Shown here: positions 7,586 through 25,618 of the stretch, piece by piece
Position numbering within the stretch: position 1 is the stretch's first letter
Layout of the letters: each line of letters starts with the position of its first letter
IMG/VR virus record: IMGVR_UViG_3300037137_000987
Span: 1 to 25,915 of that record
Strand: one strand, 5' to 3'
DNA length: 25,915 bases
Source of the DNA: a virus
Program-made: the position numbers and the translations under genes
The notes under the pieces: generated by a model
What the model saw: the letters and a program-made list of their open reading frames with translations, nothing else
Database searches by the model: none
What the model was told of the DNA's origin: nothing

Positions 7586-7959
7586 TAACAGAACTCGAAA
7601 TCGTTAGGAAGTATCTTGGAGTGGAGTATCATCCCCAGAAAATGAACTGCTGGATGTTCGTGAAGGCGATTTACTCTGACCTGGGGCGGCCCCTGGTAGA
7701 CATTCAGGATTTTCTTGAAACCAAGAATGTGGATGAGGTTCCCCGCTTGGCCCAGGAGTATAAAGACGCTGTGGTCAGTGTAGAAAAACCAGAATTGTTC
7801 GACATGGTTATGCTGAGCATTCACGGCAAATTGCACGCGGGAATAGTTCTATCCAAGGGTCGATTCATCCACCTAATGAAAGCAGGGGCGGGCGTTTGCA
7901 AGTTGGGCGACTTGCGGTGGTGGTCAAACATAATCGGATATTATAGGCAGGTGGCTTAA
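7582..7959 (+). CDS. Tail-tip NlpC/P60 peptidase, lambda gpK-like
   Basis: A 125-residue protein starting at the ATG that overlaps the L-like stop; an upstream in-frame extension exists but runs inside the L gene and has no better start. Catalytic-type residues are visible: Cys23 in 'KMNCWMFVKAIY', His85 in 'LHAGIVL' and His97 in 'RFIHLMKAG', the Cys-His-His order of NlpC/P60 cell-wall peptidases. Lambda K also carries a JAB/Mov34 domain, which is missing here, so this is the shorter peptidase-only form. It probably cuts peptidoglycan cross-links at infection or acts in tip assembly. It ends in a TAATG overlap with the J-like gene. Confidence 0.78.
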   Translation: MITELEIVRKYLGVEYHPQKMNCWMFVKAIYSDLGRPLVDIQDFLETKNVDEVPRLAQEYKDAVVSVEKPELFDMVMLSIHGKLHAGIVLSKGRFIHLMKAGAGVCKLGDLRWWSNIIGYYRQVA

Positions 7960-10900
7960 TGCTGAATTTCACATATGTCCCAGAACGATTTTCGAAAAAG
8001 GGCTCTGTATTAAAGGCCGAAGTATACGATCCTGGCAAACCGTATATTTACTACATTCAAAGACTTAAACTTTTTCCCGAAAAATTCGATCCTGAAAAAT
8101 TCACGATCATTGACGCAGGGGCGGTCGTGACTGACCTGAATAAAATCCCCAAGCGGAAGGCCCAGGTTGTTATCACTCCCAAGATCGAATGGGGACTTTT
8201 GGTATGGGCGGCAAATGCAATATGGACTTATGCTTTGGCGCATCCATATGTCTTTTGGATGACGGTTGTCTCCACAAGTTATTCAATTTATTCGTCCCTG
8301 ACAACAAAAGCGCGTATGCCCTCCTTCGGGGGCTTCGGCGCGGGGATGGATGAGTCCTCTCCCACATACGGCTGGGACGGGATCAAGCAGACCTGCGAGG
8401 TAGGGATCCCGGTATCTATCGTTTACGGCGAGCACCGCACGGGAGGGAATGTTATTAACGAATATGTCCGGACAGACGGTAATCTCAATTATTATCACTG
8501 CCTCACATGCCTGGGAGAGGGAGAGATCGAGAGCATTGAGTCCGGCCTCGTCAATAAAAACCCCATTGAGAACTTTTCGGGAATAACCGTCACGAAACGT
8601 ATGGGCACGAATAGCCAGACGGTAATCCCGAACTTTGAAGATTTGCATAATCTCAGTAATTCAATCGATATAGAACTGCTCAAAAACGATCCATATATTT
8701 ATACGACTGTGGACGACGACGTAGAAGCGTTCGAAGTACACCTTTCTCTTCCCAATGGGCTATGGGCTCAGGTCGCAGAAACAGGGCAGATAACGGCATG
8801 GGAAGTTTCTTATCGGGTGGAATATAAATTACATTCGGCGGGGAGTTACACTGACCTTGGAATAATGACTATCAGCGAAAAGAACCGCTCGACGGTTCGT
8901 AGGGTGTTTCGGAAAGCCGGGTTAACTGCGGGGCAATATGATATCAGGATTACCAGGACGAGTGACGATAATGACGACACACACACTGGCACCCTTTACC
9001 TGCTCTATATTGACGAGATAAAGTGCGATGATCTTACTTACCCCAATTCAGCCCTGGTTGCAGTCGAGGCCCTAGCCACGAACGAGCTCAGCGGTTCGGC
9101 CCCGAACCTAACCTGGGTCGTTAAGGGAAAAAAGGTTCGGGTTCCCGACGTGCGGACTGCGGGAGACATCGCGGTCGCCTGGGATGACTATTATTATGAT
9201 CCTGACGCGGAACTTTTCAAGCTCCTTGCTGACGACACCGCGCTTGTCTGGGACGGGGTAACCTATGTCACCGCTTACAGCGCGAATCCTATCTGGTGCT
9301 GCCGTGACCTCATCCTCGCCTCACGCTACGGCCTCGGAAGGTTTATCGATTCCACCTTGATGAACGATAGTCGGCTTCTTGAAGGGGCCCTGTATTGCGA
9401 AGAGAAAGTTGCGGATGGCATAGGAGGCTGGGAAAAGCGTTATCGTCTGGATGTTGTTATCGATTCTCTGACAAGGGCGCTTGACCTTATCTCGCAGCTC
9501 ACCGCCGCATTTAATGCCTTTCCTTTTTACAGTTCGGGAATGGTCGGAATGATTGTCGATAAAGCACTTGATCTCCCCACTCAAGAATTCGGGATGGGGA
9601 ATATCATCAAAGACTCGTTCAACCAGTCATGGAAATCTATTTCAGAAATCCCGAATGTTATCGAAGTCACGTTCAACGATGCCGAGAAAGACTATGAGCA
9701 AGACACGATTCTGGTGAAGGACGAAGTCGCCCTGGCTGCTGGGGAGCCGGAGCGCCCAATCAAGCTGAGGGTGTTCTGCACGCGGACTACTCAGGCCATT
9801 CGTCTGGGAAGATATGCCCTTTATGTCGCAAAATATATCAACCGTTCAATAACCCTTCGGGCCGGGATTGATGCTATTCTTTGCCAGGTAGGGGACAGAA
9901 TTGATATTGCTCACGACGTTCCTGCGTGGGGGTTCTCAGGCCGACTTGCGGCGGGGAGCACGACGACAACAGTTTACCTTGACCGTTCGGTTGAGGTGGA
10001 GTCCGGAAAGACATATGAAGTCCAGGTCTGCTATGGCGCGAACGTGATCGAAACCCGGACAGTTACTTCGGCGGTGGGGGCGCATACCTCTCTGACTATC
10101 ACGCCCGCGCTCACGGGCACGCCCGAAGAAGATGCGGTTTATTCTTTCGGGGAAGAGAACATCGTCTGTAAACCTTTTATCGTGGTTTCTCTTGACCGTC
10201 TTAATTCAGACGAGGTTGAGATCAGCGCAGTGGAATATGATGCGCGGGTATATTCCGAAGACGCTATGATTCTTCCACAGACGAACTACTCCGCACTGGA
10301 GTTCGATACTCCCTTAGTTACTGACCTCGCGCTTACTGAGCGCCTTGTCAAACTCGGGGATGGAACGATCGAAAACTGTATTGACGTGTGGTTCGCAAAG
10401 CCATCAATAGACGACAGGCATATCTGGGCTTATGAGAAAGCGAAAATTTACCTTTCGGATAATGGCGGGGCCAGTTGGGTGTATCGGGGAGAAACCGATG
10501 GGGCGTCTTTTTCTATTATCGGCAATATTGAAGCGGGGACCGAATACACCGTTGCTGTTGTTTCCGCTTCTAAGTTTGGAAAAGATAAAGCAATTTCAGC
10601 ATGTCCCCAGGAAACTATCACAGTCCAGGGCAAGGCGCTTCCCCCGAACGATGTCGCTGGGTTTGTAGTTATCCAGAGCCGTGATCGACTTTATATGACA
10701 TGGACGAGCGTTTCAGATGCCGACCTTTCCGGGTATGAAATCCGCAAGGGAACGAGTTGGGGATCCGGCGACCTAGTGGCGACGAACATTCGTCAGAATT
10801 ATCTCATCAGCCTGAGCATTGAAGTGGGGGCAGCCCAGGATTACTGGATTAAGGCAATCGATACTTCCGGCAATTATTCAGACGCTGCGACACAAGCCAT

Positions 10901-11975
10901 TCTCACTGTCGACAATGTCCCATTCACGAACCTTATCGAAAGCTATTCAGAACAAACCGCCTGGACGGGCGACAAAGTCGGGCTGGTAAAGAGCGGGGAC
11001 AACTTGAAGTTTATTCCAGGCCCTTCCGCTTCGATAAGCCCTAGTATGTCTCCTAGCACAAGTCCCTCGCCGTCCAAGAGCCCATCAGCTAGTCCTAGCC
11101 ACTCAGCGTCGGCTAGTCCTTCTCCTTCGATTAGTCCAAGTAAATCACCGTCAGCAAGTCCTTCTTCGAGCCATTCACCGAGTCACTCTGCCTCTGCGAG
11201 TCCTTCACCAAGCGCTTCTCCTTCTTCCAGTCATTCACCTAGCCATTCAGCTTCGGCAAGTCCTTCCCCGAGTGCCTCACCAAGTCCTTCTCCTTCAGTG
11301 AGCCCTTCATCCTCTAAGAGTCCGTCGGTGTCGCCTTCGGTTAGTCCGTCGGCGAGTGTCTCTCCTTCGGTCAGCCCTTCTCCGGGAAGTTACCTGACGG
11401 GAACGTACACCACCCCGGTGCGAGACGTGGGGTTTGTCGCAACGTTCAAGATCGGAATAGACGCTGTCGCTACGGTTTCGAGCGACGATACCTGGCAGGC
11501 TTTCGGAGAGCAAACGTTCGAAGATCTCGAGGATAGCGATCGTTTCGCGGGCGCGGAACTTCCGGGGGCATTGACTTTTGAGATTATAACTTCTGAGGAT
11601 AACATCACCTGGACGGATTGGGCGGCTTGGCAGCCGGGCGATTATCGCTGCCGATACTTTCAGCTTCGTATGACAATGACACGCTCGAGCACTTCGCAAA
11701 TATTATTGTGCTCTCAGTTCGATTATTACGCTGACCTCCCGGACGTTGACGACTTCGGGACAGGAGAGGTCACAGTAGCGGCAGACGGTGCCGTGATTAC
11801 TTTCGTCAAAGAGTACCATCAAATTCCTTCCGTCAACATCGACATTTTGAGTGGTGACGGTTTCATTCATAAATTCACGGTGGCCCCGGACTTGACAGAC
11901 ACCACCATAAAACTTTACAGCCTCGCGGGAGTCACGCAGACCGGGACGTTCCGCTGGGCAAGCCATGGAGTCTGA
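7959..11975 (+). CDS. Host specificity/tip attachment protein, lambda gpJ-like, with Ser-Pro repeat
   Basis: A 1338-residue central tail-tip protein. Residues 1-75 are beta-rich, then about 78-113 is strongly hydrophobic ('WGLLVWAANAIWTYALAHPY' onward). From about 130 the J core begins ('SSPTYGWDGIKQTCEVGIPV' and 'VYGEHRTGGNVI'). The tail-tip hub domains continue to about 780. Two fibronectin III-like domains follow, roughly 790-890 and 895-985 ('LSGYEIRKG', 'DYWIKAIDTSGNYSDAA'). Residues 1022-1142 are a Ser-Pro repeat, and the last 195 residues form two globular domains, the final one ending 'GTFRWASHGV' like H-type-lectin or fibre tips. There is no separate gpI gene, so the N-terminal extension may replace it. 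The tip should bind the host receptor. The start overlaps the K-like stop. Confidence 0.85.
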   Translation: MLNFTYVPERFSKKGSVLKAEVYDPGKPYIYYIQRLKLFPEKFDPEKFTIIDAGAVVTDLNKIPKRKAQVVITPKIEWGLLVWAANAIWTYALAHPYVFWMTVVSTSYSIYSSLTTKARMPSFGGFGAGMDESSPTYGWDGIKQTCEVGIPVSIVYGEHRTGGNVINEYVRTDGNLNYYHCLTCLGEGEIESIESGLVNKNPIENFSGITVTKRMGTNSQTVIPNFEDLHNLSNSIDIELLKNDPYIYTTVDDDVEAFEVHLSLPNGLWAQVAETGQITAWEVSYRVEYKLHSAGSYTDLGIMTISEKNRSTVRRVFRKAGLTAGQYDIRITRTSDDNDDTHTGTLYLLYIDEIKCDDLTYPNSALVAVEALATNELSGSAPNLTWVVKGKKVRVPDVRTAGDIAVAWDDYYYDPDAELFKLLADDTALVWDGVTYVTAYSANPIWCCRDLILASRYGLGRFIDSTLMNDSRLLEGALYCEEKVADGIGGWEKRYRLDVVIDSLTRALDLISQLTAAFNAFPFYSSGMVGMIVDKALDLPTQEFGMGNIIKDSFNQSWKSISEIPNVIEVTFNDAEKDYEQDTILVKDEVALAAGEPERPIKLRVFCTRTTQAIRLGRYALYVAKYINRSITLRAGIDAILCQVGDRIDIAHDVPAWGFSGRLAAGSTTTTVYLDRSVEVESGKTYEVQVCYGANVIETRTVTSAVGAHTSLTITPALTGTPEEDAVYSFGEENIVCKPFIVVSLDRLNSDEVEISAVEYDARVYSEDAMILPQTNYSALEFDTPLVTDLALTERLVKLGDGTIENCIDVWFAKPSIDDRHIWAYEKAKIYLSDNGGASWVYRGETDGASFSIIGNIEAGTEYTVAVVSASKFGKDKAISACPQETITVQGKALPPNDVAGFVVIQSRDRLYMTWTSVSDADLSGYEIRKGTSWGSGDLVATNIRQNYLISLSIEVGAAQDYWIKAIDTSGNYSDAATQAILTVDNVPFTNLIESYSEQTAWTGDKVGLVKSGDNLKFIPGPSASISPSMSPSTSPSPSKSPSASPSHSASASPSPSISPSKSPSASPSSSHSPSHSASASPSPSASPSSSHSPSHSASASPSPSASPSPSPSVSPSSSKSPSVSPSVSPSASVSPSVSPSPGSYLTGTYTTPVRDVGFVATFKIGIDAVATVSSDDTWQAFGEQTFEDLEDSDRFAGAELPGALTFEIITSEDNITWTDWAAWQPGDYRCRYFQLRMTMTRSSTSQILLCSQFDYYADLPDVDDFGTGEVTVAADGAVITFVKEYHQIPSVNIDILSGDGFIHKFTVAPDLTDTTIKLYSLAGVTQTGTFRWASHGV
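11022..11384 (+). repeat. Ser-Pro repeat tract inside the J-like gene
   Basis: 363 bases encode 121 residues made almost only of Ser, Pro and Ala with a few Lys, His and Val, in units such as 'SPSASPS' and 'SPSKSPS'. A longer block containing 'SSSHSPSHSASASPSPSAS' occurs twice in a row, at about 11165-11225 and 11222-11282. Codons differ between copies (TCT, TCA, TCG, AGT, AGC all used), so the protein repeat is better kept than the DNA repeat. It probably forms an extended, flexible stalk between the FN3 domains and the receptor-binding tip. Confidence 0.9.
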
Positions 11976-14560: not shown

Positions 14561-14739
14561 TGTGGGAAGTCATCGGGAATATTCTTAAGATCATCTTCTT
14601 TCTTCTGACTTGGCGGAGGGAGGCCACAGAGGAAAACAAGAAGGAGCAGGAGGCCCTAGCAAAGGAGGCGAGCGATGCTATTAAAAGCGGTTCTATTAGC
14701 CGGATCAATGCTGTGGTTGTTGGGTTGCGCAACCAGTAA
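14560..14739 (+). CDS. Small membrane protein, host frame of the nested lipoprotein
   Basis: A 59-residue ORF that starts inside the stop of the holin-like gene (TAATG). It has a short hydrophobic segment ('VIGNILKIIFFLLTW') then a highly charged helix with 'REATEENKKEQEALAKEASD'. A single N-terminal anchor plus charged helix recalls an inner-membrane spanin but is much shorter than Rz. The 3' third contains, in another frame, the start of a lipoprotein gene, as Rz1 is nested in Rz. Confidence 0.5.
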   Translation: MWEVIGNILKIIFFLLTWRREATEENKKEQEALAKEASDAIKSGSISRINAVVVGLRNQ

Positions 14740-14851
14740 GACGATTCTGTACCCCATCACGAACGAAGACATTTTTTTTGAAGGGGACAAAATTTGCATG
14801 AGCCAGTTTTACTTTAACGAGGTATTGCAGGCTAAGATAAAAAAGAAATAA
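14675..14851 (+). CDS. Small lipoprotein, Rz1/o-spanin-like
   Basis: A 58-residue ORF beginning at an ATG six bases after AAAGGAGG. The N-terminus is a lipoprotein signal: 'MLLKAVLLAGSMLWLLGC' with lipobox Leu-Leu-Gly-Cys and Cys18 as the lipidated residue, leaving a mature peptide of 41 residues. It overlaps the preceding membrane-protein gene by 65 bases in a different frame. Length, signal and nesting match outer-membrane spanins of the Rz1 type, which disrupt the outer membrane at lysis together with an inner-membrane partner. The mature part is not proline-rich as in lambda Rz1. It points to a diderm host. Confidence 0.65.
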   Translation: MLLKAVLLAGSMLWLLGCATSKTILYPITNEDIFFEGDKICMSQFYFNEVLQAKIKKK

Positions 14852-15730
14852 TTGCGAAATCTTCAGATCATAAAATCGTTTATGAAGGTTTCGGCAATTA
14901 AGGACTGGTCCTTCCCCCGGCTTTAAACCGAGCTTTCGGACCTCTCCGTGGATGGGAATAACCCGATCATCATCGGTTTTCGTGTCCCGGATCGTGATTG
15001 CATTATTCTCCAGATCAATATCTTTCCACTGCAATTTCATCAATTCAGACGGCCTCATTCCGGTATATAGGGCAAAGACCACATATTCGCGCATGTCATA
15101 GGCCGAACTATGCTCAAGGATCACCCCCGCCTCTTCTGCGGAAAGAAAGCGGTGGACAGGCCGTTTTTTAAGTCTATAACGCTTCAGGCTGGATAGAGGG
15201 TTAACTCGGAGGTATTTGCGCCGTAGCGCGTAGTTTATGAAGGTTATTAGGTACCTGTGTATGTGGTCGGCAGTGCTTTTAGTAATTCCCGTGGCGAATT
15301 TAGAATCTACATACTTCTCGACTTTTTCCACGTTAATTGAAGAAAGCTTACTGATCCCGGAATGATCGAGGAATTCAGTGATAAAAAATTTATACCCTGC
15401 TACGGTTTTCGGAGTCACCCGGTTTTTACAGTGTTCGAGGAATTCTTCCATTGCCTGGCGTGCGCCAGGATCCCGGCTGGGTGCCGGGTTATCGCCAATT
15501 CGCAAGGAAGTCTCAATCTCTCGTTTTTTATCTTTAGCGGTCTGTTCATCCCGTGTGCGGAGACTATAAGACTTGAGAACCCCAGCGTCATAATAAGAGA
15601 CGGCCCAGACTCGCCATTTACAGCGATCGCAAAGTTGAGAATTCGGGAGTTTTTTGTGGGATTCTTTAAATCGTTTTTTTTTAGTAGCGCAAGAAGGACA
15701 TAATCGCCCGCGCTGGAAAATTGATGCCAT
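14705..15730 (-). CDS. int: Tyrosine recombinase (integrase) lacking its catalytic C-terminus
   Basis: Reading leftward, a 341-residue ORF. Residues 1-60 are an arm-binding-type N-terminus containing Cys11/Cys14 and Cys34/Cys37, a zinc-ribbon-like insertion. About 88-180 is the core-binding SAM-like domain ('AMEEFLEHCKNRVTPKTVAG'). The catalytic domain starts with 'FLSAEEAGVIL', has the first active-site Arg in 'YTGMRPSELMKLQW' and the Lys in 'IRDTKTDDDRVIPIH'. The expected His-x-x-Arg box, the second His/Trp and the nucleophilic Tyr are absent: similarity stops near residue 293, where the frame runs antisense into the lipoprotein gene. It is therefore probably an inactive remnant, or completed only by rearrangement. 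Its ATG overlaps the stop of the upstream regulator by one base. Confidence 0.75.
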   Translation of the reverse strand: MASIFQRGRLCPSCATKKKRFKESHKKLPNSQLCDRCKWRVWAVSYYDAGVLKSYSLRTRDEQTAKDKKREIETSLRIGDNPAPSRDPGARQAMEEFLEHCKNRVTPKTVAGYKFFITEFLDHSGISKLSSINVEKVEKYVDSKFATGITKSTADHIHRYLITFINYALRRKYLRVNPLSSLKRYRLKKRPVHRFLSAEEAGVILEHSSAYDMREYVVFALYTGMRPSELMKLQWKDIDLENNAITIRDTKTDDDRVIPIHGEVRKLGLKPGEGPVLNCRNLHKRFYDLKISQLFLFYLSLQYLVKVKLAHANFVPFKKNVFVRDGVQNRLTGCATQQPQH

Positions 15731-16651: not shown

Positions 16652-16701
16652 AAAAAGTGACAGAAAGTGGAATTAAGTTCAAAAAGTAGAAAGTGGGAAT
16701 T
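16652..16701 (+). repeat. Two imperfect direct repeats upstream of the HTH-transglycosylase gene
   Basis: A unit of about 21-23 bases occurs at 16652-16674 and again at 16681-16701. Both read AAAAAGT, then AGAAAGTGG and GAATT; the first has three extra bases (GAC) and the second an extra G. The second copy ends just before the ATG at 16705 and may overlap its ribosome-binding region, so the pair could be binding sites for a regulator, perhaps the neighbouring ribbon-helix-helix protein. Confidence 0.5.
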
Positions 16702-16704
16702 TTA

Positions 16705-17364
16705 ATGGTCCTCCAGGAATATTTCAACCTCAAAGAGTCCGCCGTTTATCTTGGCATGAGCTATCGCTCAATCAAAAATGAATATCGATCCTGGGAAATG
16801 TTCGGGATCGTTCCCTCCAGGAGGCCAGGAAAAAGAGAAGTCTTTTATAAGAAATCCGACCTTGACCTTCTTCACGAAAAAACCAAAATCGTCCAGCCCA
16901 ATATTTCCCGTTTGCAACCGCGGAGTTTTGTTGCAGCCGCCATCTTAATCCTGCTGCTCTTGGGATCCCCGGACTGCCGCGCACAAATTATTCAACCTGC
17001 CAAAATCGATCTTAAGAAAATCGCCATGATTGAATCTTCCGGAAACCCACGCGCATGGCGCAGGGAAGATGATAGTCGCGGGCTTTTTCAAGTCACCCCA
17101 ATTTGTTTGAAAGATTATAACAACTTTCATCCGGGCGCCGCTTATAGCATGGACGATCTTTGGGATGTTTCAGTAAGCACTTTGATCGCCGATTGGTACC
17201 TTAATAAGCGGATCCCCCAGATGCTGCGGCATTTTGGGATCCCGGACACAATCAAAAACCGTCTGTGGGCGTATAACGCGGGAATCGGGAATGTCGTTAA
17301 GGGAAGAATGCCGAAAATAACCCAGGACTATTTAAGGAAATATTTCCATGAGCGAGAAGATTAA
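16705..17364 (+). CDS. HTH (excisionase/MerR-like) - export signal - SLT lytic transglycosylase fusion
   Basis: A 219-residue protein from ATG 16705 (a GTG at 16693 is possible). Residues 1-60 look like an excisionase-type winged HTH: 'FNLKESAVYLGMSYRSIKN', then 'RRPGKREVFYKKSDLDLL'. Residues 74-93 are a hydrophobic export segment, 'SFVAAAILILLLLGSPDC', ending in Arg-Ala before Gln94. Residues 100-215 are an SLT-type lytic transglycosylase: catalytic Glu110 in 'MIESSGNP', 'RGLFQVTP' and 'LWAYNAGIGNV'. The enzyme half should cut peptidoglycan glycan strands in the periplasm, while the HTH would be cytoplasmic. Either it is a membrane-tethered regulator, or an internal start such as the TTG (Leu70) just before the signal gives a separate exported enzyme, although no good Shine-Dalgarno is seen there. 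Confidence 0.75.
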   Translation: MVLQEYFNLKESAVYLGMSYRSIKNEYRSWEMFGIVPSRRPGKREVFYKKSDLDLLHEKTKIVQPNISRLQPRSFVAAAILILLLLGSPDCRAQIIQPAKIDLKKIAMIESSGNPRAWRREDDSRGLFQVTPICLKDYNNFHPGAAYSMDDLWDVSVSTLIADWYLNKRIPQMLRHFGIPDTIKNRLWAYNAGIGNVVKGRMPKITQDYLRKYFHERED

Positions 17365-17491: not shown

Positions 17492-17697
17492 TGGCGCATT
17501 GGATATGTTCGGAATGTGGGGAAACAGCCGTCGGGCATACGACAGTACCAGGAAAACACTTTTTTTTCTGTAAAGCACACTGGTTAATTTATGTAGGCAT
17601 AAAGAAAGGAGTTTTGACGTGTTTGAACAACCCAAAATCAGCATCTTTGCAGCCAGCGTCCGTCCGCACCTCTGGAAAGCGTTCTTCGGTTCACTGA
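17491..17697 (+). CDS. Small zinc-ribbon-like protein
   Basis: A 68-residue ORF from ATG 17491 (alternative ATG 17479). The first half has Cys-x2-Cys in 'WICSECGETAVGH' and a Cys-x2-His in 'FFCKAHW', a likely single zinc site. The last 26 codons overlap the next gene in another frame and look like uninformative sequence, so the protein may have been extended by loss of an earlier stop. It could be a small nucleic-acid-binding or adapter protein; function is not known. Confidence 0.45.
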   Translation: MAHWICSECGETAVGHTTVPGKHFFFCKAHWLIYVGIKKGVLTCLNNPKSASLQPASVRTSGKRSSVH

Positions 17698-18425
17698 AAT
17701 CAAACGACCTGCAATTCGAAGTCGTTTTCGCGGGGAATCTCGCCTATGACATCATCAATTTATTCTCTCCGAAATTCGAAAAGCCAAACCAGTTTTTTCA
17801 TTATATCCAGACCGGGAATATCAAGCCCGCCCAAGCCGCGGAAATTGCTCGACGGCATTGTGAAGGCGAACTCCTGCACTGGTCAGCAGACGATGCGGAA
17901 TATTCTCTTCGCCTAATTGATCGCATCTGGGAATCTTGGAAGAAGTTTAATGATTATAGAACTATTGTCTCCTGCCAGACAATCGAGGACGGGAGTTTCG
18001 TGCTCCTCGAGCGCCACCGTTTGTTCTGGAAAGCGCACAATACCCCGCAAATGGCGCCACTAGGATTTATAAGTTCGATCCTCTGGGACAAACTTGGGGG
18101 AATTGATCGCCGTTTTGTTTCTGGGCAATGGGACAACGACATATTGATGCGGGCGCTGAATGTTGGGGCAGAAGTAGTGTTGTTTACCGAAGGTGGAGAG
18201 ATTTCACTTGATCATCGCGGTAAACATGGCGGCAACCAGGGCACATTTCGCTCAGGTTACCCGAAGGATCGGGAAGTGCTGGAGGGCGCCTGGGCGCCAC
18301 AAGGAAAAGACACTGACCTTCGAACCCCACCTTTTCAGCGTTATGACGGAGGGTTCGAGCCGTTCGATCATGCCGCACCGGATTTTTTAACCGTAAGCCA
18401 AAGTAATAAGGGGATGTGGGAATGA
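17619..18425 (+). CDS. GT-A-type glycosyltransferase (first of three related copies)
   Basis: A 268-residue protein starting at GTG 17619, with AAGGAG seven bases upstream. It begins 'KISIFAASVRPHLWKAFFGS', matching the two later glycosyltransferases ('VAGIRPWNWKALYDS'). Acidic metal/nucleotide-binding residues Asp91-Asp92 lie in 'LLHWSADDAEYS', the place of the DXD-type motif. The middle 'PLGFISSILWDKLGGIDRRF' and 'QWDNDILMRAL' are the acceptor-side pattern of family 2-like enzymes. It should transfer a sugar from a nucleotide-sugar donor; donor and acceptor are unknown. It has no membrane segment. It overlaps the dehydratase-like gene downstream by four bases and opens the cargo operon. Confidence 0.7.
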   Translation: MFEQPKISIFAASVRPHLWKAFFGSLKSNDLQFEVVFAGNLAYDIINLFSPKFEKPNQFFHYIQTGNIKPAQAAEIARRHCEGELLHWSADDAEYSLRLIDRIWESWKKFNDYRTIVSCQTIEDGSFVLLERHRLFWKAHNTPQMAPLGFISSILWDKLGGIDRRFVSGQWDNDILMRALNVGAEVVLFTEGGEISLDHRGKHGGNQGTFRSGYPKDREVLEGAWAPQGKDTDLRTPPFQRYDGGFEPFDHAAPDFLTVSQSNKGMWE

Positions 18426-19387
18426 ACCGCGAGAACGTTCTTGTTACTGGGATCACCGGATCGGGGGGATCGTATATCGCAGAATATATTCTGGCGCATC
18501 ATCCTGAATATCAAGTGGTGGGGATTTGCCGCTGGCACTCGACGAGTTCCTACGCAAATATCGACAATATTAAAGATAAAATAATTTTACGTGAATGTGA
18601 CCTGATGGACCTTTCCTCAATTATTAGGGTTCTCAAAGATTGCCAGCCGAAGAGGATATTCAATTTAGCCGCTTATGCAAATGTACGGAAATGTTTTGAC
18701 ACCCCACTCTCGGTGATTAACAACAACATTATGGGGACCGCGAATTTACTGGAAGCTATCCGGATCGCGTCTCCGGACTCGCTTCTTCAGATGTGCTCGA
18801 CAAGCGAAGTCTATGGCAACCCCAAGGTTTTCCCCATGACCGAGGAGCATCCGCTTTGTCCGGTGAACCCCTATTCCGTCAGTAAACTTGCCCAGGAGCG
18901 GCTGGCGTACGCTTATTTTAAGTCTTGGGGGATCCGGGTGATCATTACTCGGATGTTTACCTACCTTAACCCGCGCAGAGGAGATGTCTTCGCCACGGCC
19001 TTTGCGCGGCAGGTTGTCCGGATTGAGAATGGGTTGCAGAAGGTTCTGAAGCACGGGAACCTCGATTCACTCCGCACGATCATAGACGTACGCGACGCGA
19101 TGCGGGCGTACTGGCTGGCCTGTGATCGCTGCGAACTCGGGGAAGCTTATAACATAGGCGGGGGGACCGTGAAAACTGTAGGCCAATTTCTGGATGTTCT
19201 TAAATCTCTGGCGAAAGTACCCATCGAATCCGAAGTCGATCCCGCATTGTTGAGACCTATTGACGTAACTTGCCAGATTCCCGACACGAGTAAGTTCGAT
19301 ACGGCAACCGGGTTTAAGCCGCAGTATTCATTTGAGGAAAGTGTTCAGTTTCTTCTGGATCACTGCCGAAAGGAGAAGGAAAGATGA
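18422..19387 (+). CDS. NAD(P)-dependent sugar-nucleotide SDR enzyme, GDP-mannose 4,6-dehydratase/reductase-like
   Basis: A 321-residue extended short-chain dehydrogenase. The start at ATG 18422 is chosen because AAGGGGA lies seven bases upstream; a GTG at 18416 is too close to it. The nucleotide-binding loop is 'VTGITGSGGSYIAEY' (G10, G13, G16). The active site has Ser126-Thr127-Ser128 followed by Glu129 ('CSTSEVYG') and Tyr151-x3-Lys155 ('NPYSVSKLAQE'). 'NPRRGDVFATAFARQVVRIE' and 'LRPIDVTCQIPDTSKF' are the substrate-side segments typical of GDP-mannose dehydratase and the related GDP-6-deoxy-4-keto-mannose reductase. It probably makes a deoxy-sugar nucleotide for the glycosyltransferases next to it. 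Dehydratase and reductase cannot be told apart with confidence. Confidence 0.8.
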   Translation: MNRENVLVTGITGSGGSYIAEYILAHHPEYQVVGICRWHSTSSYANIDNIKDKIILRECDLMDLSSIIRVLKDCQPKRIFNLAAYANVRKCFDTPLSVINNNIMGTANLLEAIRIASPDSLLQMCSTSEVYGNPKVFPMTEEHPLCPVNPYSVSKLAQERLAYAYFKSWGIRVIITRMFTYLNPRRGDVFATAFARQVVRIENGLQKVLKHGNLDSLRTIIDVRDAMRAYWLACDRCELGEAYNIGGGTVKTVGQFLDVLKSLAKVPIESEVDPALLRPIDVTCQIPDTSKFDTATGFKPQYSFEESVQFLLDHCRKEKER

Positions 19388-19557
19388 TTAATTATAGTCT
19401 GGCCATTGGGGTATTGATAGGGTTCTTTTTTAGCCTAATTATTAGACTCATAGCGGCATGGATCAAGGACGTGAACTACCGACTTGAAGTTATGAGATGT
19501 GATCGCAAGAATATATACGACAGGTTATGCGAATTAGAAAAGGAAAAGCAAAAATGA
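19384..19557 (+). CDS. Small membrane/coiled-coil protein inside the sugar operon
   Basis: A 57-residue ORF with ATGA overlaps at both ends (with the SDR gene and the flavoprotein gene), so it is part of the coupled operon. Residues 4-28 are hydrophobic ('YSLAIGVLIGFFFSLIIRL'), and the rest is a charged helix ending 'LCELEKEKQK'. It may anchor one of the soluble enzymes at the membrane. No family recognised. Confidence 0.5.
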   Translation: MINYSLAIGVLIGFFFSLIIRLIAAWIKDVNYRLEVMRCDRKNIYDRLCELEKEKQK

Positions 19558-20837
19558 AAACCGCTATTCTTGGCGCAGGTTTAACGGGGCTTGAACTGGG
19601 CCGAAGGCTCCACCTCATGGGGAAAGACTTCACCATCTTCGAGAAAGAATCCCAGCTCGGCGGACTCGCCAGGACATTCAGAACGGGGATATATTCTTGG
19701 GACCTTGGGGTTCACGCGATGTACAGCAAAGACAAAATAATAACCGGGTACTATGACTCGCTTCCAATCCACATACAACGGCATACACGTAACGTAAAAA
19801 TCCGCCACGGAGACAGTTTGATTTCATACCCCTTCGAAAACGCTATCAGCGAACTTCCCCTCAGGGACCGATGGGAGTGTGTACGCGGGTATTTGACTTC
19901 ACACAGAAAGGAAAAGTACTCCAGCCTCGAAGATTGGATCGTTAATCGGCTGGGGTACGGGATCAGCAAGCATTTTATGACGCCGTACAATAAGAAAATC
20001 TGGGACTGTCCACTATACCTAATCTCCGCCGGACTGGTGTCCGGGAAAATCGATCCGATGAGCGTGCACTTGTTCATCCTCTCCGCGTTGGGGTATCGGA
20101 CCATTGGCCGGGCGTATCAATCCAAGTTCGTTTATCCTTTAAACGGCATTCAGGAATTCATCGAGCATACCGCCGCAGATATCCGGGACAGAATTCAGAT
20201 AAATAAAGAAGTCACTGAAATGAAATATAAAAACGGACGCTGGCTGGTTCATGAGGAAGAATTCGACCGGGTTGTTTCCACAATCCCCTTACCCGAACTA
20301 TTGAAAATCCTGGGGATTAACGAAGCCCTCAACCTCAAATGGAATAATACACGCTTTATTATGATCGGACTCAAGCCGGGATGCACTTTCGGGAAATACC
20401 ATGATTGCCACTGGGCGTTTTTTAAAGGTGCTGAGATATTTTACCGCCTCACTTTCATGCACAATTTTAGCAATAAGTTTCCCGCCGCCGTCGTGGCCGA
20501 AGTCACTGATAAATACAATGTAGAACTAAGAAAGTATGTCGTATCTGATTTATTGCGGGCGGGGATTATCCTGGGTCGGGACTGTATTGCTGAAATAGCC
20601 GAGAAACGAGTCGAGTATACATACCCAATTCCGACGATTGGGACAAGTTCGCTTGTCGAGGTAATCGAGAATGAATTGCGAGAACTAAACCTCCATCTTC
20701 TGGGCCGAAACGGACGGTGGAGATATATCAACATGGACGGGGTAATCAAGGAGGTCGATGAGTATGTCACCACAGTTATCAGTAATAATCGCGGGGATCC
20801 AAGTCGAAAGATGGGCGAATTGCTGGGAGTCAATTAA
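19554..20837 (+). CDS. FAD-dependent oxidoreductase, UDP-galactopyranose mutase/amine-oxidase-like
   Basis: A 427-residue flavoprotein starting at ATG 19554 (AAGGAAAAG upstream). The N-terminal dinucleotide fold is clear: 'AILGAGLTGLELGRRL' with G7-G9-G12, Glu30 at the end of the second strand for the ribose, and 'SQLGGLARTF'. The middle has 'SLEDWIVNRLGYGISKHFM' and 'PYNKKIWDCP', a pattern seen in UDP-galactopyranose mutases and in the protoporphyrinogen/amine-oxidase-like proteins found in polysaccharide gene clusters. 'YPLNGIQEFIEHTA' is the substrate-domain signature of the same group. It could interconvert pyranose and furanose sugar nucleotides or oxidise one. The 3' end overlaps the next gene by 74 bases. 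Confidence 0.72.
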   Translation: MKTAILGAGLTGLELGRRLHLMGKDFTIFEKESQLGGLARTFRTGIYSWDLGVHAMYSKDKIITGYYDSLPIHIQRHTRNVKIRHGDSLISYPFENAISELPLRDRWECVRGYLTSHRKEKYSSLEDWIVNRLGYGISKHFMTPYNKKIWDCPLYLISAGLVSGKIDPMSVHLFILSALGYRTIGRAYQSKFVYPLNGIQEFIEHTAADIRDRIQINKEVTEMKYKNGRWLVHEEEFDRVVSTIPLPELLKILGINEALNLKWNNTRFIMIGLKPGCTFGKYHDCHWAFFKGAEIFYRLTFMHNFSNKFPAAVVAEVTDKYNVELRKYVVSDLLRAGIILGRDCIAEIAEKRVEYTYPIPTIGTSSLVEVIENELRELNLHLLGRNGRWRYINMDGVIKEVDEYVTTVISNNRGDPSRKMGELLGVN

Positions 20838-21624
20838 TAAGGCTTTCGCGGGAGAGTGGGAACTCATTTTCGTGGGGCCGTATGAATGCCCACAAGCGGT
20901 TCTAGACAAGGGAAACGTTCTTTACATTCAGGACTTCGGGGCCCCAGCGCGGTGTATGCAGCGCGGGTTACTTGCCGCAACCGGGGACTGGGTTATGTTC
21001 ACCTGGGACAATGGAGAACTGGTCAAGAATAGCATCGATGAAATTTTCGCCATGCTTGAGGAGCATGAGATGGATAAAAATGTCGCGATCGCTGGGAAGT
21101 ATATCGAGGGCATACTTCCGGTTTCACAAGTCTACATGGCCAGTGAAATTTATTATCACATCACCCACCACGCCGGGGCCTGGTCGCCATTCATCCCGGA
21201 CAGTTATTTGCTTTTTAACCAAGGCGTTGTTGCTCGAGAAACTATCCTGCGGTTCGGAGGCTTGGACTGTGCCTTTGAAGCTCCTTCGATGGCCCTGGTT
21301 GACCTTGCTATTCGTATGCAAAAAGGCGGGGTCAACATGATCCTTAAGCCCGAAGTAATGCTTCACGAGGACTGGACTCCAGCAACCGAAGGAGCTCACG
21401 GCCCCATTCATTTCGCCATGATCGAGCATGACCTTCCGCTGTACGCGACCATTTACCAAAACAATAAACTCGAAAAGGGGACTATCGACATTGCCGCCAT
21501 AACCTATAAGGCCCAATTCGATGAGTACCGAAGTAAGGGATGCGCAGATCGTTTACTCATCCCTCTGGATAACTGGACGAACTCACCAGAAAAATGGGAA
21601 AGGAGATTCGGAAAAAATGGATAA
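20764..21624 (+). CDS. Glycosyltransferase-like protein (second copy, altered acidic motif)
   Basis: A 286-residue protein from ATG 20764, nine bases after AAGGAGG; ATG 20758 is three bases from it and less likely. It lies 74 bases into the end of the flavoprotein gene. The start 'LSVIIAGIQVERWANCWESI' and 'EWELIFVGPYECP' match the third copy closely, and both end with 'IPLDNW.N.PE.WERRFG'. Where the sibling has Ala-Asp-Asp, this copy has Trp-Asp82-Asn83 ('FTWDNGELVKN'), so one acidic ligand is changed. It may use a different donor, have lost activity, or act as a partner subunit. Tandem duplication with its neighbour is the simplest origin. Confidence 0.65.
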   Translation: MSPQLSVIIAGIQVERWANCWESINKAFAGEWELIFVGPYECPQAVLDKGNVLYIQDFGAPARCMQRGLLAATGDWVMFTWDNGELVKNSIDEIFAMLEEHEMDKNVAIAGKYIEGILPVSQVYMASEIYYHITHHAGAWSPFIPDSYLLFNQGVVARETILRFGGLDCAFEAPSMALVDLAIRMQKGGVNMILKPEVMLHEDWTPATEGAHGPIHFAMIEHDLPLYATIYQNNKLEKGTIDIAAITYKAQFDEYRSKGCADRLLIPLDNWTNSPEKWERRFGKNG

Positions 21625-22405
21625 AATTAAACTCTCAGTTTTAGTCGCGGGTATTCGTCCCTGGAATTGGAAGGCTTTGTATGATTCTGTCGCGTCCTCA
21701 TTCAGCGGGACGTGGGAGATCGTCTTCGTCGGACCATACCCCCCGCTTGAGGATCTCAAAGACGCACCAAATCTGGTGTTCAAAGAAGACTGGGGATCGC
21801 CTATGCGGGCCCAGCAAATCGCTTTGACAATGGCGAGGGGCGAATTCTGCACCTGGGTAGCCGACGACGGGGTATTTCTTCCCGGCGCACTGGACGAAGC
21901 CTTCAAGTTTTATGCCGAAGAAGATTGGATATCGAACCCTATGCGTGGGGTTATCGGCAGGTACTGGGAAGGAAGCGGGGATCACGCAATCATGAACAAT
22001 CCAGAATATTACCGCCTTAATTTTCACGATGGGGCGCGGAGCCGATGGATTCCAGACGATTGCTTGCTCCTCAACCTCACTATCGCCCCGACAGAAACAA
22101 TACGCTCTTTCGGGGGTTGGGACTGTATCTTCGAAGCAATCCCTATGGCTCTCTGCGACCTGGGAGTCAGGGTTCATATTGCGGGAATGAGATTCAAACT
22201 TTGTCCAGGGGTGCTTTACACCTGCACGCATACCCCCGGAAGAGAGGGAGATCATGGCCCGATTCACGACGCCCAGACCTATTTTGACATGCCCTTGTTT
22301 AAGTCAATCTGGGACGGACCGAACAGGCCGGATCGGATCACTATACCCTTGGACAACTGGAAGAATGCCCCGGAACGTTGGGAACGGAGGTTCGGGCCGA
22401 AATGA
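21617..22405 (+). CDS. Glycosyltransferase-like protein (third copy)
   Basis: A 262-residue protein from ATG 21617; AAAGGAG is about 11 bases upstream, and the in-frame region before it overlaps the previous gene. It is the sibling of the second copy: 'LSVLVAGIRPWNWKALYDSV', 'TWEIVFVGPYPP' and an intact Asp83-Asp84 in 'WVADDGVFLPGALDEAF', like GT-A family 2 enzymes. 'RWIPDDCLLLNLTIAP' and 'FGGWDCIFEAIPMALCDLGV' are shared with the second copy. It likely transfers a sugar, perhaps the one made by the SDR and flavoprotein. It overlaps its neighbours by 8 and 4 bases. Confidence 0.7.
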   Translation: MDKIKLSVLVAGIRPWNWKALYDSVASSFSGTWEIVFVGPYPPLEDLKDAPNLVFKEDWGSPMRAQQIALTMARGEFCTWVADDGVFLPGALDEAFKFYAEEDWISNPMRGVIGRYWEGSGDHAIMNNPEYYRLNFHDGARSRWIPDDCLLLNLTIAPTETIRSFGGWDCIFEAIPMALCDLGVRVHIAGMRFKLCPGVLYTCTHTPGREGDHGPIHDAQTYFDMPLFKSIWDGPNRPDRITIPLDNWKNAPERWERRFGPK

Positions 22406-23628
22406 AGACCAGGTACGCCTTAATTAAACCGAATACGAAGAAGGGGCAGTATGGCGCTCTTGCCGAATTGTCCGCTATTGAGATGCCGCTGTGGTTGCTC
22501 CTTCTTTCCAATCTATACGAAGACTCGCTTATAATCGACGCTGAAGCACAAGGGCTTAATCGGTTAGGAATCCTTATGACATGTCAGAACAATGGGATCA
22601 CTAATGCGATCATCCTTAATACTGGCTCCCAACCGTCGGCAATATATCAGCAAAGCGATGAGTCTTCAAGAGTCAGGCTGCTTTTACAGATGAATGGAGT
22701 TCCGACCGTGGTTTACGACCACCTTCCGTTCAACCCAATGAATATCGGAAGCCCTAAATATTCCCGCCTTCCACTTCAGAAGTATCGCGCCCACAACTGG
22801 CATTCTTGGGGATATCCTGAACGCTCACCTTATGGATCGATTTATACATCCATCAGCTGTCCATTTCACTGTGACTTTTGTTGCATTCATTCATTTTATA
22901 ACCATCCTTACCAGGTGCGGGAAGTGATGGACGTGCTTGAGGACGCGGTACAACTGCGTCGCCTCGGGATCACTCACGTGAAAATAATGGATGAACTTTT
23001 CGCAATAAAAGGAGCACACTTGAAGGAATTAAGCAGGGAACTGAATTTATTAAATCTCGGTCTTAATATGTGGGGATATGCCCGAATTGATACCGTAGAC
23101 GAAGAATCGCTCCGGGCATGCAAGGCCATGGGCGTGAATTGGCTGGCGTACGGAATTGAAAGCGCTGACCGGGAAACCCGGCAAAAATCAGGGAAAGGTA
23201 AATTCACGAATGAAGATATCCGTCAAGTGGTTGATATGACAAAAGACTGCGGGATAAACGTCGTCGGTAATTTCATTTTTGGATTCGCTGATGATGACTG
23301 GGGATCGATGCAAAGGACACTCGACTTCGCGCAAGAACTCAACTGCGAATATTCGAATTTTTATTGCATGACGCCATACCCCACATCCAAAATTTCCGAA
23401 GGGACCCCGACGCAATCCCCTGCATCTTATGCCCAATATTCAAAAGATTTCAAACCGATGGCAACCCGGTTCCGCAGTGGGGAAGATGTTCGAGAGTTTC
23501 GGGATCGAGCATTCAAAACATATTATCAGAACTTTGGATATCTGCATTCGATTCAAGAAAAATTTGGGAAAAATGTAGTCGAGCAGATTAATGCCATGAC
23601 TGCTATCGATATTGTGAGGGACAAATGA
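22402..23628 (+). CDS. Radical SAM protein with B12-binding-like N-terminal region
   Basis: A 408-residue protein from ATG 22402 (GGAGG upstream, ATGA overlap with the previous stop). Residues 1-130 resemble a degenerate B12-binding fold ('LWLLLLSNLYEDSLIIDAEA'), without the usual cobalamin-ligating Asp-x-His-x2-Gly. The radical SAM cluster motif is Cys153-x3-Cys157-x2-Cys160 ('SCPFHCDFCCIHSF'). Downstream are 'KIMDELFAIK', 'RIDTVDEESLRACKAMGVNW' and the glycine motif 'YGIESADRETRQKSGKG', then 'VVGNFIFGFADDDW'. This is the layout of the large B12-binding radical SAM group (BchE-like). It could methylate or rearrange a sugar or lipid in the same pathway; the true substrate is unknown. Confidence 0.8.
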   Translation: MKTRYALIKPNTKKGQYGALAELSAIEMPLWLLLLSNLYEDSLIIDAEAQGLNRLGILMTCQNNGITNAIILNTGSQPSAIYQQSDESSRVRLLLQMNGVPTVVYDHLPFNPMNIGSPKYSRLPLQKYRAHNWHSWGYPERSPYGSIYTSISCPFHCDFCCIHSFYNHPYQVREVMDVLEDAVQLRRLGITHVKIMDELFAIKGAHLKELSRELNLLNLGLNMWGYARIDTVDEESLRACKAMGVNWLAYGIESADRETRQKSGKGKFTNEDIRQVVDMTKDCGINVVGNFIFGFADDDWGSMQRTLDFAQELNCEYSNFYCMTPYPTSKISEGTPTQSPASYAQYSKDFKPMATRFRSGEDVREFRDRAFKTYYQNFGYLHSIQEKFGKNVVEQINAMTAIDIVRDK

Positions 23629-25151
23629 ACATTCTTCTAAACGAATTCCAGCTCGAAATGCCGGGGGGGGCGACATATCTTCCGTATGCAAGCGGACTGC
23701 TCGCGGCTTATGCGCAAAAGAACAGCGCAATCCGAGACTTAAGATTTTATTTCAATGAACAAGATTCATGCCGAAAGCATATGGACGCCAGGGGATATTC
23801 AGTTAGCCAATGGAACCTTAATCGTTCTCTTCAAGATGCGGAGCAATATCCAAATTCAAGAATAGTTTTCGGTGGCCCATCTTCAAGTGAGGTCAAAGAC
23901 TATCCTGCCATCATCGGCGAGGGGGAATATGCCTTCGCGAAGTGGCTGGACACCGGGTCCCTTCTCTCCCTCCCCTACGCCTTGCCAAATATTGACGATA
24001 TCCCATCCCCCTACACAACGGGCCTGTTTGAGGGCCTAGTAGGCCCACAGAGCCAAGCCATCGTCGAAACCGTTCGAGGCTGCCCCTTTGGCTGCGCATA
24101 TTGCGCCTGGGGCAAGGGCGGCAAGGCCGGGAAAAATGTGAGAATGCACTCACTGGCCTATGTCCAGGAAGAGGCCGAATGGATGGGGATAAATAAAATT
24201 AAATATGTTTTCTGTGCTGACGGGAATTTTGGGATGTTTACCCGTGATGTTCAAGTCGCAAAAATATACGCGGACGTCAAACGAAAATATGGTTATCCCG
24301 AACGGTTCCGCGTATGTTTCGGCAAGAACGCAGAAGAGAGTATTTTCGAGACTGCGAGTATTTTGGCAGAAGCCGGACTCATTAAGGCCGTAACGCTCTC
24401 ACGTCAATCCACTAATCCTATCGCGCTCGCATCAGTAGGCCGCGGGAACGTTTCACAGCAGACATTCGACCGTCTGCAAGATCGATATGCCGAAACAGGG
24501 ATCCCAACTTACTCCGAACTAATCCTTGGCCTACCTGGAGAAACATATGAGTCATGGAAGCAAAGCATCATTGATTCTATGCGGCGGGAAACGCAGCTTT
24601 TCCTTTATCCCCTTTCAGCGCTTCCGGGATCACGGCTTAATGAGATTGACTACCGTATGGCTTACGGCATCCGCACCAGGCGAGTGTTGTTGACCCCCGC
24701 GCATTGCATCCCGCCCGCTGTCGCTGAATATGAGGATATCGTAGTCGAGACAAATACACTCGACCCAGAAGAATGGCGAAAGGCGATGGTATTGGGATGG
24801 TTGGTACAGTTGTTTTATTCATTCAAGTTAATGTCCGAAACTCCCGAAAGCATAGTGGTTGCTTGTGAGGCCGTAGCCGACCCTTCTAATCTAGCCGACG
24901 ATCCTCAACTTCAAGCGATCGTCACGAGATTTTACGAAATAGCCGATGGAATGTTAGCGGGTAAAGGACGATGTATTCAGGACGACTTTTGGGGGCCATG
25001 TTATTGGGAGCCGGAGGAATGGGCATATTTAGAGCTTTGCCGTTCGAATAATCCAGAAGTGGCAGCAGATGATCCAGAAAAATTCGCAACGATGGCGTTA
25101 CTTTATGCAAGAAAATCAAACATGAAACGTAATTTAACGACGGTGGAATAG
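23625..25151 (+). CDS. Second radical SAM protein (B12-binding-type family)
   Basis: A 508-residue protein overlapping the previous gene by four bases. The N-terminal part keeps the last piece of a B12-binding domain ('IVFGGPSSSEVKDYPAIIGE'), preceded by a degenerate region. The cluster motif is Cys153-x3-Cys157-x2-Cys160 in 'RGCPFGCAYCAWGKGGKAG'. Then come 'YVFCADGNFGMFTRDVQVAK', 'RVCFGKNAEESIFETA' and 'SELILGLPGETYESWKQSI', all typical of a radical SAM family seen next to glycosyltransferases in bacteria. The C-terminal 170 residues ('LLTPAHCIPPAVAEYEDIVV' onward) are an extra domain. It probably acts on the same product as its neighbour. A weak Shine-Dalgarno and the overlap suggest coupling. 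Confidence 0.8.
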   Translation: MNILLNEFQLEMPGGATYLPYASGLLAAYAQKNSAIRDLRFYFNEQDSCRKHMDARGYSVSQWNLNRSLQDAEQYPNSRIVFGGPSSSEVKDYPAIIGEGEYAFAKWLDTGSLLSLPYALPNIDDIPSPYTTGLFEGLVGPQSQAIVETVRGCPFGCAYCAWGKGGKAGKNVRMHSLAYVQEEAEWMGINKIKYVFCADGNFGMFTRDVQVAKIYADVKRKYGYPERFRVCFGKNAEESIFETASILAEAGLIKAVTLSRQSTNPIALASVGRGNVSQQTFDRLQDRYAETGIPTYSELILGLPGETYESWKQSIIDSMRRETQLFLYPLSALPGSRLNEIDYRMAYGIRTRRVLLTPAHCIPPAVAEYEDIVVETNTLDPEEWRKAMVLGWLVQLFYSFKLMSETPESIVVACEAVADPSNLADDPQLQAIVTRFYEIADGMLAGKGRCIQDDFWGPCYWEPEEWAYLELCRSNNPEVAADDPEKFATMALLYARKSNMKRNLTTVE

Positions 25152-25165
25152 AGAAAGGAGCAAAA

Positions 25166-25618
25166 ATGAGAAGCGTTATTAAAAATCCAGAAATCATTTC
25201 AGAACTCAAAGGGCTTTACATCAAGAAGGGAATATTGAGCCCCGCAGATGTTGTCAGCATGGCAAGGAACCCAAAATCCGCGCTACATGATTCTTTCGAA
25301 TGGGATGATTCAAGGGCGGCAGAAGCATATCGAATTGATCAAGCGCGTGGAATTCTTCAAATTGTTGTCGAGTATTTGCCAAGTGCGCCAGATATTATGA
25401 GCCGGGTATTTATATCCATCTCAGATGATGCAAATAACGGCGGCGGATATCGAGCAATGGTTGATGTCCTCAACGATAAAGATATGCGGAAAACGTTAGT
25501 TATGGACGCGCTTAATGAACTTCAAAAATTTGAGCATCAATATAAAGCAATCAAAGAACTCGTATTGATATTCTCAGCCATAAAAAAAACACGTCGCAGG
25601 CTGGGAGTGGCACGGTAA
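25166..25618 (+). CDS. Conserved phage protein of unknown function
   Basis: A 150-residue protein with AAAGGAGC before the ATG, the first gene after the sugar operon. It has a pattern I recognise from many phages: 'ILSPADVVSMARNPKSALHD', 'SFEWDDSRAAEAYRIDQARG', a beta middle ending 'GGGYRAMVDVLNDKDMR', and a helical end with 'LNELQKFEHQYKAIKELVL'. It is usually in the early/replication side of the genome and is all-soluble. No catalytic motif can be named. The stop is followed directly by the GGCNN array. Confidence 0.65.
   Translation: MRSVIKNPEIISELKGLYIKKGILSPADVVSMARNPKSALHDSFEWDDSRAAEAYRIDQARGILQIVVEYLPSAPDIMSRVFISISDDANNGGGYRAMVDVLNDKDMRKTLVMDALNELQKFEHQYKAIKELVLIFSAIKKTRRRLGVAR

Follow-up and report, generated by a model that had tools for sequence, protein, structure and literature searches.

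What would a small siphovirus do with enzymes for building and attaching a sugar? The question is raised by IMG/VR virus record IMGVR_UViG_3300037137_000987, the entire 25,915 bases of which form the window analyzed here, and in particular by an operon at positions 17619-25151. The operon encodes three glycosyltransferases (GT1, GT2 and GT3), a short-chain dehydrogenase/reductase (SDR), a flavoprotein resembling UDP-galactopyranose mutase (UGM) and two radical S-adenosylmethionine (SAM) enzymes (rSAM1 and rSAM2). The present analysis supports the proposal, made earlier in a sequence-only reading, of a phage-borne operon for making and attaching an unusual sugar. The explanation we favor, at a probability of roughly 45%, is that the operon is the phage's own and that the acceptor of its sugar would be a glycan of the host envelope.

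Radical SAM enzymes

Both radical SAM proteins match Pfam Radical_SAM at about 1e-14. On sequence grounds, rSAM2 is probably a cobalamin-dependent C-methylase (class 1, TokK/CysS type): its similarity over the radical SAM core reaches 1.4e-46 to TokK and 9.1e-38 to CysS, the cluster motif CxxxCxxC is present as CPFGCAYC in alignment with both, and its W63, invariant in the rSAM2 family alignment, aligns with Trp76 of TokK. In the available part of PMC13331322, Trp76 is the Trp under the cobalt, in the loop after strand 3. The protein scores under the NCBIfam KedN5 cut-off (136.6 versus 700 bits). It is shorter (508 aa) than TokK, CysS and KedN5, and its gene context is one of sugar genes, whereas theirs is carbapenem or aromatic. 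The nearest plasmid homologue (Azospirillum, 31% over 90%) is surrounded by GMD, SDR and glycosyltransferase genes, an annotated surface-sugar neighborhood. Together with the TokK and CysS relatives, this makes the C-methylation suggested earlier likely for rSAM2.

The best fold match of the rSAM1 model is AprD4 with its sugar substrate (6fd2; Z 25.9, root-mean-square deviation (rmsd) 3.2, 348 residues aligned), yet at 18% identity; the next is 9ccb (Z 21.2, rmsd 3.6, 317 aligned). The sequence falls under the AprD4 family cut-off (73.5 versus 500 bits). The earlier description of two B12-type enzymes is only partly supported: the fold of rSAM1 is nearest to that of AprD4, which is a sugar diol dehydratase, and its cobalamin-type domain is shortened.

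The TokK and CysS relatives serve antibiotic pathways, one plasmid relative lies among adenylation-domain genes, and a phage record designated L250 (L numbers denote the loci compared) has GT1 without rSAM2. These observations would suit a radical SAM pair that makes a small molecule or peptide-like product unrelated to the transferases. We regard such a product as quite improbable: the radical SAM frames overlap with transferase and SDR genes, and relatives of rSAM1, rSAM2 and GT2/GT3 occur together again in L012, L039-L041 and L177.

Sugar-nucleotide enzymes and glycosyltransferases

The best PDB match of the SDR is GDP-D-glycero-D-manno-heptose 4,6-dehydratase (1.7e-55), compared to 2.4e-39 for GDP-mannose 4,6-dehydratase (1db3). 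The active-site motifs T/S-x-E and YxxxK are kept, as TSE and YSVSK, in alignment with 7us5 and 1db3. The protein scores under the gmd TIGR01472 cut-off (148.2 versus 415 bits).

Judged by its sequence, the UGM-like protein is possibly a sugar-nucleotide mutase or an oxidoreductase. It is far under the cut-off of TIGR00031, the UDP-galactopyranose mutase family (35.5 versus 303.75 bits), and carries a Lys aligned with the Arg of the 4dsg segment EERVAPVD, which we take to be the catalytic Arg of the mutase. This substitution weakens the earlier suggestion of a furanose sugar. A search of the phage collection with the UGM-like protein returned 24 records, all under 60% identity and none with 80% cover.

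GT3 is predicted with high confidence to have a GT-A fold; its model has a mean predicted local distance difference test (pLDDT) score of 94.7 and the PDB matches listed are GT-A enzymes, with heparosan synthase 2 (Z 19.3, rmsd 3.2, 222 aligned) tied with WrtF (18.6, 3.0, 209). GT2, a paralogue of GT3, and GT1, which has a relative in L166, are assigned to the GT-A type by homology only. All three window proteins fall short of the Pfam GT2-family cut-off; the L166 relative of GT1 passes that of Glycos_transf_2 (26.9 versus 23.3 bits). The L250 record that contains the GT1 relative also has thymidylate-synthase-like genes, recognized by eye.

Organization of the operon

All seven genes of the earlier set were recovered in place on the plus strand, and their starts were refined from overlapping stop and start codons (Table 1). 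Two small genes had been missed: a zinc-ribbon open reading frame (ORF), whose sole Pfam match (Zn_ribbon_recom, 15.2 bits) is under the cut-off, and an ORF with a single transmembrane (TM) segment. With these included, every gene from the zinc-ribbon ORF through rSAM2 overlaps its next neighbor. A relative of the TM gene was sought properly in L250 only, and none was found there.

Promoter- and terminator-like sites in the region are at about the level of shuffled sequences (21 versus 16.4 and 16 versus 14.0, respectively), and no promoter is claimed for the operon because these counts are so close. An Rfam search found nothing. A defense system is likewise not claimed, the PADLOC matches being weak and partial (rSAM2 to PDC-M51A, 42.8 bits; GT1 to PtuB, 20.1).

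Table 1. Genes of the operon and selected other genes of the window, with the evidence for their assignment
Feature	Position	Strand	Evidence or remark
Zinc-ribbon small protein, 72 aa	17479..17697	+	overlaps GT1 start; relatives by tblastn 2e-14 and 4e-13
GT1, GT-A type glycosyltransferase, 268 aa	17619..18425	+	40-43% identity to L166 protein
SDR, GDP-mannose/GDP-heptose 4,6-dehydratase-like, 321 aa	18422..19387	+	Pfam GDP_Man_Dehyd 1.5e-69
Single-TM protein, 57 aa	19384..19557	+	GTG start overlaps SDR stop; stop overlaps UGM-like ATG
UGM-like FAD protein, 427 aa	19554..20837	+	Pfam NAD_binding_8/Amino_oxidase; PDB UGM 4dsg 1.5e-27
GT2, GT-A type glycosyltransferase, 288 aa	20758..21624	+	40% identity to GT3; family alignment
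GT3, GT-A type glycosyltransferase, 262 aa	21617..22405	+	model and PDB fold matches
rSAM1, AprD4-like radical SAM enzyme, 408 aa	22402..23628	+	shortened cobalamin-type N-terminal domain
rSAM2, TokK/CysS-like radical SAM enzyme, 508 aa	23625..25151	+	sequence similarity, motif
Phage protein phrog_15946	25166..25618	+	starts 14 nt past rSAM2
SLT lytic transglycosylase-like protein	16693..17364	+	family matches; upstream neighbor of operon
Integrase	14705..15730	-	phrog_1, 1.4e-40
Central tail tip protein J	7959..11975	+	in L166 and L167, J precedes the cassette by a few genes

Recurrence in other phages

In two other siphovirus contigs, L166 and L167, J is followed by a second gene, a transferase-like gene (named by eye, with no Pfam match in L166), the zinc-ribbon gene and, immediately downstream of it, rSAM2. 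The rSAM2 proteins are 47% (L166) and 52% (L167) identical to that of the window. In L166 the zinc-ribbon stretch and rSAM2 share a single open frame, followed by GT1, a further Pfam GT2 protein and, at the contig end, an HNH-like gene; L167 ends within rSAM2, so that GT1 is seen only in L166. In a tree of 43 sequences of our own choosing, the rSAM2 proteins of the window, L166, L167 and L039 form one all-viral clade (support 99/96). The GC content at third codon positions (GC3) is 0.536 in the cargo and 0.545 in the virion genes, with a codon-frequency correlation of only 0.763.

On this comparison of sequences the operon appears to be a property of the phage, and a chimeric assembly of phage and host genes, named at the outset as what would undo the proposal, is very unlikely because the cassette recurs with phage genes in L166 and L167, rSAM2 falls in the all-viral clade and GC3 is similar. 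In addition, the phage gene phrog_15946 lies directly downstream. No support for a chimera was found; the record ends soon after the operon.

The record of the L166 phage (L248) also encodes, at about 1319-2834 on the minus strand, a reverse-transcriptase-like protein beside a gene with an Asn-rich end. The pair resembles a diversity-generating retroelement.

When 50,697 phage records were searched by tblastn with rSAM1, rSAM2, GT1 and GT3, nothing matched (at 1e-5 for rSAM1 and rSAM2); the L005 relative of rSAM1 matched only Streptomyces phage SF3 (24%, 2 records), and the L039 relative of rSAM2 matched none. Single-protein viral scans with rSAM2, rSAM1 and GT3 were empty, whereas alignment-based scans found relatives.

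Viral and bacterial relatives and the probable sugar

The rSAM1-alignment scan of viral contigs found 109 relatives, 80 of which were kept and combined with L005 and L006 into a comparison set of 82 loci. At E<=1e-4, relatives of the window proteins were found in this set as follows: rSAM1 in 82 loci, SDR in 26, GT2, GT3 and rSAM2 in 17 each, GT1 in 15 and the UGM-like protein in none. The rSAM2 scans gave at least 79 bacterial and at least 80 viral loci, and the counts below are samples among the matches listed.

Both radical SAM genes were found (E<=1e-20) in at least 13 viral loci, which represent 9 distinct records by contig name, since the contigs of L039, L040, L041 and L042 appear a second time as L168, L169, L171 and L175. 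The match values of L039-L041 are identical. An SDR is present in 11 of the 13 and GT2/GT3 relatives in 8; in L039-L041, which look alike, and in L177, the SDR, GT2/GT3, rSAM1 and rSAM2 all occur together. Among viral loci with rSAM1, the gene for the alpha part of a thiamine pyrophosphate (TPP) enzyme is present in 67 of the 76 that lack rSAM2 and in 12 of the 13 that have it. Long sugar islands occur in viral contigs L005, L012, L013, L039 and L057; they include a TPP enzyme in two parts, a DegT aminotransferase, several GT3-like transferases and genes resembling heptose kinases.

Among the bacterial rSAM2 loci, 12 of 79 also contain rSAM1 (E<=1e-20). An HddA-like kinase is present in 10 of these 12 and in 25 of the 67 without rSAM1 (one-sided Fisher p 0.004), an HddC-like guanylyltransferase in 9 of 12 and 18 of 67 (one-sided Fisher p 0.002), and a TPP enzyme in 8 of 12 (both parts) and 11 of 67 (alpha; one-sided Fisher p 0.0008). 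These tests were picked after the counts had been seen, the loci are related to one another (L088 and L089 seem to be almost the same) and contig ends truncate them. In L088 the HddA (409.5 bits, cut-off 600) and HddC (255.7 bits, cut-off 300) assignments are the best by far, under the curated limits. The C. jejuni heptose pathway, in the portion of PMC10680097 available, includes HddC and a 4,6-dehydratase step.

Because of the HddA/HddC neighborhoods and the best solved relative of the SDR, GDP-heptose is a likely precursor, with GDP-mannose as an alternative. In the proposed pathway, the SDR would dehydrate host GDP-D-glycero-D-manno-heptose (probably) or GDP-mannose to a 4-keto-6-deoxy sugar, rSAM1 would remove or rearrange a hydroxyl by AprD4-like radical chemistry, rSAM2 would put a methyl group on an unactivated carbon, and the UGM-like protein would alter the ring form or oxidation state.

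The acceptor of the sugar

In the reading we favor, GT1-GT3 would next attach a short glycan to a host envelope glycan that is still on the cytoplasmic side (a lipid-linked or lipooligosaccharide intermediate). The attachment would take place in the cytoplasm, possibly with the 57-aa TM protein as an anchor at the inner membrane. The change of glycan during the lytic cycle would lessen adsorption of rival or sister phages. The envelope is preferred because relatives outside phages have sugar-nucleotide and transferase genes around them, the presence of three transferases points to a short chain, and the operon includes a small TM protein.

Several observations weigh against this reading. No Wzx, Wzy or Gtr proteins were recognized in the operon, and the position of the cassette behind tail genes in L166 and L167 would suit decoration of the virion equally well. 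The window has no HddA, HddC or TPP pair, so its pathway must differ or lean on a host precursor. An SDR (E<=1e-20) is present in only 5 of the 12 bacterial loci with both radical SAM genes (and in 14 of the 67 without rSAM1). The UGM-like gene was not found in the fetched loci or in 18 related viral records, a search made without a positive control. Comparison of sequences and the model indicates that rSAM1 may have lost cobalamin binding; its use of cobalamin is uncertain, because segments of the cobalamin-type domain present in the L005 relative are missing and residues 81-117 of the model (416-aa frame) are below pLDDT 50. Finally, the phage record L250 has a GT1 relative (41%, 7989-8762) but no rSAM2, and the sugar used by GT1 could therefore be a different one.

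The same sugar could instead be attached by GT1-GT3 to tail or head proteins during assembly, a somewhat unlikely possibility that ranks next to the favored one. In the tail operon of L166 and L167, only a few genes separate J from the start of the cassette. In the window the operon is read in the same direction as the preceding SLT gene, its frames are tightly packed, and terminator-like sites are no more frequent than in shuffles. None of the seven enzymes has a TM segment, and a flippase is absent; pelagimyophage cassettes are located in the tail-fiber region, according to the accessible part of PMC7029224. In addition, of 116 consecutive residues in J of the window (11037-11384), 61 are Ser and 28 are Pro, which makes this stretch a plausible acceptor of O-glycans. 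Such a stretch is, however, absent from J of L166 and L167 (maximally 32 and 29 Ser, Thr and Pro per 100 residues, versus 78 in the window), and a Ser/Pro-rich J was therefore rejected as a general acceptor. Virion decoration must also be set against the bacterial relatives, which lie among GDP-heptose and other sugar genes. A more specific version, in which a family of small siphoviruses, one or more of them equipped with an integrase, would make a radical SAM-tailored, C-methylated deoxy-heptose and glycosylate their own tail proteins by means of a zinc-ribbon-led cassette behind the tail genes, is unlikely; if true, the sugar would be made by the virus and not supplied ready by the host.

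Seroconversion had also been suggested. In its Gtr form, in which a prophage alters the O-antigen and excludes superinfection, it is unsupported, and we judge it improbable. The phage does have integrase and XRE genes, and glycosyltransferases are present, but neither a multi-TM flippase like GtrA nor a membrane transferase is found in the operon: none of the seven genes encodes a 19-residue segment above 1.6 mean hydropathy, and the only TM gene is that of the 57-aa protein, with one TM segment. Moreover, the integrase and the XRE gene next to it are encoded on the other strand, a second XRE gene and the SLT gene are located upstream of the operon, and in L166 and L167 the cassette is found behind tail genes.

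Phages are known to glycosylate DNA, and the sugar might be placed on the phage DNA. DNA glycosylation by phages is mentioned in the available part of PMC7029224. Nucleic-acid modification is nevertheless very improbable here, as no base-hydroxymethylating or hypermodifying gene was recognized in the (incomplete) record and the bacterial relatives occur in sugar-nucleotide neighborhoods.

Other features of the virus record

The left part of the record is that of a lambda-like siphovirus, with a head-tail adaptor, a MuF-type minor head protein, connectors, a tape measure and J. After the tail part, the minus strand encodes the integrase and a small XRE gene; next come, on the plus strand, the second XRE gene and the SLT gene. 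No terminase, portal or major capsid gene, nor most replication genes, were seen in the 25.9-kb record, which is probably a fragment, since the packaging genes were unseen. Beyond the operon, phrog_15946 is probably co-transcribed with it. An N-terminal part resembling a helix-turn-helix is read in the same frame as the SLT gene (16693-17364), which perhaps represents two genes or has a wrong start. The minor head protein (473-2425) contains a 338-residue Hint/LAGLIDADG-like intein (about 1277-2290), inserted at an HPN|C motif.

Comparison with known systems and significance

The sequence-only reading knew of no described system with this gene set. For the exact set this holds within our searches, in which no paper naming it was found, as judged by titles and abstract openings, and nothing was found joining cobalamin radical SAM enzymes to O-antigen. 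Cassettes of this kind, however, are already described in phages. In the accessible part of PMC7029224, the host-recognition clusters of pelagimyophages contain transferases and added radical SAM cassettes, and the authors infer modification of the host O-chain. The likeness lies in phage-borne transferase and radical SAM genes by the tail genes, as in L166 and L167; in the window, an integrase module separates the tail genes from the operon. The pelagimyophages are T4-like and large, and the regions concerned span about 45 kb, whereas the operon of the window is compact, belongs to a small lambda-like phage with an integrase, and adds SDR, UGM-like, zinc-ribbon and TM genes. Campylobacter phages CP220 and CPt10, with 11-12 radical SAM proteins according to the available part of PMC2853527, are similarly rich in radical SAM genes without assigned use; the phage collection, in which their inclusion was not confirmed by name, gave no rSAM1 or rSAM2 match at 1e-5. 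In bacteria, L088 and L096 (HddA, HddC, GMD-type SDR and TPP pair) have homologous rSAM1, rSAM2 and SDR genes close together; the window has no HddA, HddC or TPP pair and adds the UGM-like protein and its own transferases.

Radical SAM enzymes of phages are mostly recorded as auxiliary genes of unknown use. The association of rSAM1, rSAM2 and the SDR in bacteria and phages defines a testable pathway, with GDP-heptose or GDP-mannose going in and a methylated deoxy sugar coming out, and the compact siphovirus cassette in which to test it is far smaller than the large regions of T4-like phages. If the pathway is true, phages would carry cobalamin-dependent sugar chemistry reliant on host B12; if proved, the synthesis of a GDP-linked, radical SAM-tailored sugar by a small phage would be new.

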